From the NCBI RefSeq assembly GCF_015775515.1, contig NZ_CP065383.1, forward strand, positions 1,364,001 through 1,428,000: DNA of 64,000 nucleotides, given 5' to 3'. The notes beneath the pieces were generated by a model, which saw only the letters and a program-made list of their open reading frames with translations, did not search any database and was not told where the DNA came from. Below are positions 22,050 to 24,021 of this stretch, one piece after another; within the stretch, counting starts at the first letter, position 1; the number at the start of each line of letters is the position of its first letter. Source of the stretch: Atribacter laminatus. Lineage in GTDB: Bacteria > Atribacterota > Atribacteria > Atribacterales > Atribacteraceae. Both the position numbers and the translations under genes were made by a program.

Positions 22050-22901
22050 ATGAGAAAACGTAGAGGCAAAATCATAGTAAACATAATTCTTTGGATTATT
22101 GTGGCCATTGTCGCTGTTTGGATGCTTTTCCCTTTTTATTGGGCAGTGATAACTTCAATAAAAAAGCCCGCTGATGTATTTCGGTTATCTTTCATCCCGG
22201 GTGTTCAATTCGATCCCACTTTAGACAACTGGAAGTCGGAGTTCCAATTGCGAGGTAAAGAAATTACTCGTGCTATGGGGAATTCACTGGCAATCGGCAT
22301 TGGTGCTGCTTTTATTGCTTTGGGGGTTGGTACCTTAGCCGGATATGGATTAGCCCGTTTCCGTTATCGTGGCTGGTCGAATAAAAGCATTTCAATGTGG
22401 ATATTATCACAGCGTTTTCTTCCTCCAGCTGCAACTGTTATTCCCTTCTTCTTGATTTTTAAAAATTTAGGTTTGATAGATAATGTAGTTGCTTTGATTC
22501 TTGTAAATGCAACCTTCACTATTCCTTTTGCCGTTCTTATCTTACGTGATGCTTTTAAAGAACTCCCAGAAGAAATTGAAGAATCAGCTTTGGTTGATGG
22601 TTGTTCTCGGTTTCAAGCCTTTTTTCGAATGGCATTACCATTGGCCGCACCTGCTTTGGTATCAGCTGGTATAATTTGTTTTTCTTTTGCTTGGAACGAG
22701 TTTTTATTCGCTTTCATAATGACTTATGCAAAGGCTTCCCCGATGACGGTTATTATCGCTGGCACTCAAGATACTCAAGGGATTCAGTTTTGGTATGTAG
22801 CTACTCGAATGCTGTTAGCAATTGTTCCTCCAGCAGTTCTTGCTTTGACAGTTCAGAAATATATTGTTAGAGGTTTGACCTTTGGTGCAGTTAAAGGTTA
22901 A
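22050..22901 (+). CDS. Sugar ABC transporter permease 2 (MalG/UgpE type)
   Basis: Six membrane segments in 283 residues with the EAA motif EEIEESALVDGCSRFQAFFRMALPL. The ATG at 22050 has a GAGGTG ribosome site six bases upstream; a GTG at 22041 is less likely. The operon ends here without an ATP-binding subunit, so it must use a shared MsmK/UgpC-type ATPase encoded elsewhere, as is common for family 1 sugar importers. Confidence 0.92.
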   Translation: MRKRRGKIIVNIILWIIVAIVAVWMLFPFYWAVITSIKKPADVFRLSFIPGVQFDPTLDNWKSEFQLRGKEITRAMGNSLAIGIGAAFIALGVGTLAGYGLARFRYRGWSNKSISMWILSQRFLPPAATVIPFFLIFKNLGLIDNVVALILVNATFTIPFAVLILRDAFKELPEEIEESALVDGCSRFQAFFRMALPLAAPALVSAGIICFSFAWNEFLFAFIMTYAKASPMTVIIAGTQDTQGIQFWYVATRMLLAIVPPAVLALTVQKYIVRGLTFGAVKG

Positions 22902-22927: not shown

Positions 22928-22956
22928 TTGAATACGAAAACTATTTTATTTATAAT
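22928..22956 (+). promoter_or_regulatory. Sigma-70 promoter for CDF leader
   Basis: TTGAAT (22928-22933) and TATAAT (22951-22956) are spaced by 17 bases. Transcription would start near 22963, giving a leader of about 126 bases before the CDF gene. Confidence 0.65.
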
Positions 22957-22962
22957 AAAATA

Positions 22963-23088
22963 AATTTGGAGCAGGCGATTGATCTGGATTGATCAGGTTA
23001 ATGGGGCTGGGCAAAAAGCAACAGGTAAAAACCTGTGGGACCATTATTGGTCTTACAGGTTTTTTTGTTTAATTTTGGAGGGTTGTTG
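22963..23088 (+). promoter_or_regulatory. Structured 5' leader with antiterminator/terminator, candidate riboswitch
   Basis: The segment ACCTGT (23031-23036) can pair upstream with ACAGGT (23021-23026) or, as AAACCTGT (23029-23036), downstream with ACAGGTTT (23055-23062). The downstream form, with an inner GGACC/GGTCT stem, is followed by a seven-T run, so it is a terminator; the upstream form would prevent it. Before this lie TGATC/GATCA (around 22979-22994) and GGGGCTGGGCAAAAAGC (about 23003-23019), which could be the sensing part. The downstream gene is a divalent-metal exporter, so metal sensing is plausible. I could not match it with certainty to the known NiCo (czcD), manganese or fluoride classes. 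Confidence 0.55.
23029..23070 (+). terminator. Leader terminator upstream of CDF gene
   Basis: AAACCTGT (23029-23036) with ACAGGTTT (23055-23062), inner GACC/GGTC pairing, and a T-rich tail to 23070. It lies before the start codon, hence premature termination. Confidence 0.75.
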
Positions 23089-23961
23089 ATGACTGAACGA
23101 ACCCGTTATTTTACAATTCGAAATGTATTGCTGGGAATTTTACTCCTGAATTGGGGAGTAGCCTTGACGAAGTTATTATACGGGAGGTTTATTGGTTCAG
23201 CGAGTATGGTTGCCGATGGATTTCATTCTCTTTCCGATGGAGCTTCGAATATTATTGGATTGATAGCGATTTCTATCTCAGTTCGACCTGCCGATGTTAA
23301 CCATCCTTATGGGCATAAAAAGTTTGAGAGCTTTGCTTCAATTGCCATTGCCCTGCTCCTTTTTATTGTGAGTATCGATATTTTACGAGGAGCAATTGAC
23401 CGTTTAAGTAAACCGGTTATTCCAGAAGTAGCTCCTACAAGCTTTATTGTTATGGCAATTGTTTTATTTGTTAATATAGTCGTGGTGAGTTTTGAAACTC
23501 GAATAGGTCGGCGTCTTCATAGCGATATTCTTACCAGTGATGCCCTTCATACTCTGAGCGACATTTTTGTTTCTATTTCGGTTGTTGTCACATTGATTGC
23601 AGTTCGATTGGGAGTAACCTGGTTAGATGTGGTCGCGGCTATGGTTATTGCTGGTTTAATTTTAAAGTCTGGGATTGAGATTCTTTTAAGAAGCTCTGAT
23701 GTTTTATGCGACCGTGTCATTGTTGATCCTGCAGTAATTACCGATATTGTTCTTTCTATTTCTGAGGTCAAAGGTTGCCATAAAATAAGAACTCGAGGCC
23801 GAAAAGATGATATCCATATCGATCTTCATCTATTGGTTGCTGACCATATGGATGTTCAAAATGCCCATGAAATTGCGAATCAAGTCGAAGATGCTTTAAA
23901 AAAGAATATACCCGGGGTTACGGATGTTGTAGTTCACATAGAACCGGTTACCGAAGTTTAA
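23089..23961 (+). CDS. Cation diffusion facilitator metal exporter
   Basis: 290 residues with six predicted membrane helices and a C-terminal cytoplasmic domain from about 205. The transport site motifs are HSLSD (His46, Asp50) in helix 2 and HTLSD (His154, Asp158) in helix 5. The His/Asp combination is typical of zinc- or cobalt-type members rather than DxxxD manganese types. A histidine-containing loop NHPYGH follows helix 2. The ATG at 23089 is chosen because GGAGGG lies 6-11 bases upstream; an earlier in-frame start would be inside the leader terminator. It likely exports Zn, Co, Ni or Fe. Expression is probably controlled by the leader. Confidence 0.92.
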   Translation: MTERTRYFTIRNVLLGILLLNWGVALTKLLYGRFIGSASMVADGFHSLSDGASNIIGLIAISISVRPADVNHPYGHKKFESFASIAIALLLFIVSIDILRGAIDRLSKPVIPEVAPTSFIVMAIVLFVNIVVVSFETRIGRRLHSDILTSDALHTLSDIFVSISVVVTLIAVRLGVTWLDVVAAMVIAGLILKSGIEILLRSSDVLCDRVIVDPAVITDIVLSISEVKGCHKIRTRGRKDDIHIDLHLLVADHMDVQNAHEIANQVEDALKKNIPGVTDVVVHIEPVTEV

Positions 23962-23977
23962 AAAAATGAAATTTAAA

Positions 23978-24015
23978 ACTTCGCTTTGGGCTTATGAGTA
24001 AATCCAAAGCGAAGT
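23978..24015. terminator. Bidirectional terminator
   Basis: ACTTCGCTTTGG (23978-23989) pairs exactly with 24004-24015, between the convergent CDF and signal peptidase genes. Confidence 0.85.
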
Positions 24016-24021
24016 GAGTCT

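Follow-up and report, generated by a model that had tools for sequence, protein, structure and literature searches.

The leader of a CDF-family cation exporter gene in the window (the whole 64-kb stretch of DNA analysed here) is very probably a riboswitch of the NiCo (czcD) class that acts as a transcriptional ON switch, a reading to which we give a probability of about 0.94. It is an ordinary Atribacterota example of an already known metal-sensing RNA class, through which an efflux pump is produced solely when transition metals abound, and it leaves knowledge of how this class works unchanged. The original prediction, made from the sequence, had described the logic of a riboswitch ahead of a metal exporter and held that no known class could be assigned with certainty. 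The first part is supported, that is, metal sensing in the ON direction through a terminator/antiterminator exchange before a CDF exporter, whereas the second does not, as RF02683 matches at full length above its gathering score.

The features are as follows, all on the forward strand.

22928..22956, +, sigma-70-type promoter, TTGAAT-17-TATAAT (consensus scan, 10/12, best of the region)
22957..23045, +, NiCo (czcD) riboswitch aptamer matching RF02683 over the whole model, with structure beginning at about 22967 (47.3 bits)
22967..22972, +, P1 5' strand, pairing with 23039-23043 (Rfam alignment; two P1 pairs changed on both sides)
22974..23008, +, P2 hairpin (Rfam alignment; closing pairs 100% kept)
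23009..23011, +, GGG of the GCYGGGC core (invariant in 12 sequences)
23011..23019, +, P3, 2 bp (G-C, C-G) closing an A-rich loop, against 5 bp in the Rfam consensus (Rfam alignment)
23021..23036, +, P4 antiterminator hairpin, ACAGGT-AAAA-ACCTGT (sequence, Rfam alignment; three pairs changed on both sides)
23027..23066, +, intrinsic terminator with T-run, its 17-bp stem (23027-23064) using the P4 and P1 3' strands (consensus scan, folding, covariation)
23037..23038, +, GG of GGGAC, J4/1 (invariant in 12 sequences)
23077..23082, +, Shine-Dalgarno sequence GGAGGG (sequence)
23089..23961, +, CDF-family cation exporter, 290 aa (PF01545 1e-39, PF16916 6e-21; TIGR01297 218 bits)

Class assignment and aptamer architecture

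Reading the sequence confirmed the predicted 126-base leader (22963-23088, its given start lying 7 nt past the promoter), which is directly followed by the ATG of the CDF gene at 23089. The good promoter predicted for it scored highest in the region, and three congeneric leaders (L083, L084, L088) share its hexamers and spacing. Upstream, an ABC transporter operon ends at 22901, and the promoter sits between this operon and the hairpin.

We scanned the window with all Rfam families at gathering score, and the leader also at E<=10. RF02683 was the sole match in the window, scoring 47.3 bits where gathering requires 37 (E 1.2e-7 for the 64-kb window), and it covered model positions 1-96 of 96. 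This is the one NiCo copy in the 3.1-Mb genome. Among the three classes that the original prediction had proposed for a covariance scan, NiCo was positive, whereas the yybP-ykoY (Mn) and fluoride riboswitches gave no match in the window at gathering score or over the leader at E<=10. No other competing Rfam class was found over the leader at E<=10. A high score by a known model had been named beforehand as the outcome that would speak against novelty; because RF02683 matches at full length above gathering, at 47.3 versus 37, novelty is refuted on the prediction's own terms. Conservation outside the terminator, the lack of which would have counted against the prediction, is evident: AGGC, GCYGGGC and GGGAC are invariant across the 12 aligned sequences.

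The Rfam alignment places the four helices P1-P4 around the junction, with P3 shortened to 2 bp. The stretch GGGGCTGGGCAAAAAGC, pointed out earlier as part of the sensing region, was found at 23003-23019, where it forms the P2/J2-3/P3 part of the aptamer. In the 4RUM crystal structure, the Co2+-coordinating guanines are G45-G47, G87, and G88 (PMC7689651). Judged by motif, GGG 23009-23011 would correspond to G45-G47 and GG 23037-23038 to G87/G88. In the window leader, P2 contains a G.G mismatch at one pair. The only distinctive local trait is P3, which in the window and most congeners retains about 2 pairs around a short A-rich loop; this shortening may explain some of the lower score. L090 diverges further in P3 and P4.

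The 47 bits of the window leader are modest against 58-88 for most among the matches listed. This score, below that of most other listed members, and the short P3 are what a new metal-riboswitch class unrelated to the known ones could appeal to. We regard such a class as extremely improbable, since the RF02683 match spans the full model, exceeds the gathering score and contains every core motif, and 9 of the 11 matches in the phylum pass the cut-off.

Alternative pairing and the proposed switch

As the original prediction had noticed, ACCTGT (23031-23036) has a possible partner on either side, namely ACAGGT at 23021-23026 upstream of it and ACAGGT at 23055-23060 downstream of it. Pairing with the latter forms part of the predicted terminator before the ribosome site, for which we found 17 pairs (-24.7 kcal/mol for the stem alone), a T7 at 23060-23066, and then GGAGGG. 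The 5' arm of this terminator is exactly the P4 3' strand plus the P1-closing GGGACC. When transcripts of increasing length were folded, P4 was favoured until roughly position 23057 and gave way to the terminator at about 23060. The complete leader has its lowest free energy in the terminator form. Folding alone is no proof of switching, because a minimum in the terminator form is expected without ligand.

Covariation was assessed in 12 homologous leaders. For the aptamer pairs, 92.2% of cells were standard and 5 pairs had changed on both sides (1/500 shuffles); for the terminator pairs, the values were 96.8% and 4 pairs (0/500 shuffles). Pairing in both structures exceeds nearly all shuffles and all slid registers; shuffles can be inflated by sequence kinship, yet the slid registers, which preserve kinship, fall far below. 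The shared strand covaries with both of its alternative partners. The P4/terminator overlap and the T-run were present in 39/39 placeable NiCo leaders, comprising 11 from Atribacterota (window included) and 28 others (L046 and 27 from the sampled class of G053); 3 of the 30 additional leaders were left unscored, the motif search having found no core in them. Swapping terminator arms among all leaders gave -19.2 kcal/mol for native and -15.4 kcal/mol for foreign arms, with many single foreign arms equally good. This is weak evidence, because the arms are so alike that many foreign ones match the native one.

These results bear on whether the hairpin could be just an intrinsic terminator or attenuator that senses no ligand, such as one that ends the upstream ABC operon. 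The stem is indeed strong and that operon does end upstream, at 22901, but a promoter intervenes between the two, the stretch preceding the terminator shows the conservation and covariation of a NiCo aptamer, and the design is identical in all 39 placed leaders. We consider a plain terminator very unlikely.

For the NiCo switch, we propose the following course of events. Without metal, the nascent RNA would refold so that AAAAACCTGTGGGACC pairs with GGTCTTACAGGTTTTT, a pairing that the sequence itself shows, and the resulting hairpin would be expected to terminate transcription before the CDF gene. Going by published work on the class, Ni2+/Co2+ or Fe2+ would bind guanines at the four-way junction, and P1 and P4 would then be held together, with their 3' strands withheld from the terminator. 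With the terminator unavailable, RNA polymerase would read through and the exporter would be made. The published work describes a platform in which bound metal keeps an overlapping intrinsic terminator from acting, so that the exporter gene is transcribed (PMC7917058, PMC7689651, PMC7266159). Since the P4 3' strand and GGGAC lie in the terminator 5' arm and both helices covary, metal should block the terminator here and switch the exporter ON, as has been described for this class.

Distribution and genomic company

NiCo matches occurred in 10/50 Atribacterota genomes, namely in 10/10 of those sampled from the window's family and in none outside it. CDF relatives from Candidatus Atribacteria MAGs (L002, L003, L004, L013) have proteins 83-91% identical to that of the window. 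Within the family, NiCo precedes both the window's CDF and a different one (L085, 32% identical), and in G007 it precedes a P-type ATPase (L082, G007:C75) that is closest to the PMR1 type. This places a known metalloriboswitch in one Atribacterota family, where the several exporters behind it are unrelated to one another: CDFs of two kinds and a P-type ATPase, the latter in a single genome. One NiCo-linked CDF (L089, G006:C80:17343-18192) is split over two reading frames (residues 6-68 and 66-287) by a frameshift or an assembly error.

The element was absent before the CDF orthologues of about 55% identity in the neighbouring Atribacterota family (L098-L102); four of these five are immediately preceded by what looks like coding sequence, as would be seen inside an operon. 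Among the leaders scanned from remoter CDF relatives outside Atribacterota, L046 alone reached the cut-off. In the sampled class of G053, 41/291 genomes had a NiCo match, before CDFs or similar P-type ATPases, so the genomic company in the window is that of the class. NiCo aptamers also precede P-type ATPases at L121, L123, L125, L128-L135, and L141. A plasmid scan for NiCo gave no match, and none of the papers searched connects riboswitches with Atribacter.

The exporter, the sensed metal, and known systems

The CDF exporter that had been predicted downstream of the leader is borne out by PF01545 and PF16916 directly 3' of it. A heavy-metal exporter, as looked for in the NiCo class, is accordingly in place, and the relatives of the aptamer precede CDFs or P-type ATPases. 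The metal site of the protein is HxxxD-HxxxD (H46, D50, H154, D158; residues checked). This is the pattern of Zn/Co/Ni-type CDFs. E. coli FieF instead has DxxxD-HxxxD, as seen in the alignment with FieF 3h90. The CDF metal site by itself does not fix specificity. An inverted repeat, ACTTCGCTTTGG...CCAAAGCGAAGT (window 23978-24016), separates the CDF gene from the signal peptidase I gene that converges on it and is probably a terminator common to both. The same genome has a second CDF gene outside the window (G000:C1:1088698-1089471), which is without a NiCo element.

The cognate metal of the NiCo class is disputed, Ni/Co (Furukawa 2015) being set against Fe(II) (Xu and Cotruvo 2020) (reviewed in PMC7689651, PMC9294342). 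Members of the class are characterised by cooperative binding of Ni2+/Co2+ (or Fe2+). The leader may therefore belong to the NiCo class and yet have Fe(II), or another first-row metal, as its physiological ligand, with the exporter serving as an iron-efflux or broad divalent-metal pump; we put this at slightly short of even odds. Xu and Cotruvo (2020) found that the aptamer responds to Fe(II), and Fe(II) and Mn(II) are regarded as the only metals whose cellular availability suffices for binding (PMC7689651, PMC9294342). The nearest solved CDF structures are annotated FieF, but the window's CDF departs from FieF in its metal site, and the first characterisation saw a response to Co and Ni and none to Mn or Zn (PMC7689651). 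L082, the one NiCo-linked P-type ATPase that was typed against models, is closest to the PMR1 (Ca/Mn-type, P2A) model and not to heavy-metal pumps of the P1B type, a point of possible relevance to the dispute. It is unlikely that the short-P3 form seen in the window's genus represents a NiCo sub-variant whose metal preference or threshold has shifted (say, through tuning to Fe(II) in an anaerobe); if true, it would help to settle the dispute. As a divergent natural member, the window leader could serve to test which metal the class really senses.

Compared with the NiCo riboswitch of RF02683 (Erysipelotrichaceae bacterium structure, PDB 4RUM), the window leader shares the four-way-junction aptamer, the GCYGGGC and GGGAC cores, the overlap of P4 with an intrinsic terminator, the CDF exporter downstream, and the predicted ON logic. 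It differs in its P3 of 2 bp, against 5 in the class, and in its host, a member of Atribacterota. The yybP-ykoY (Mn2+) riboswitch is likewise a metal-sensing RNA ahead of divalent-cation exporters, but its model gives no match in the window, even when applied permissively over the leader.
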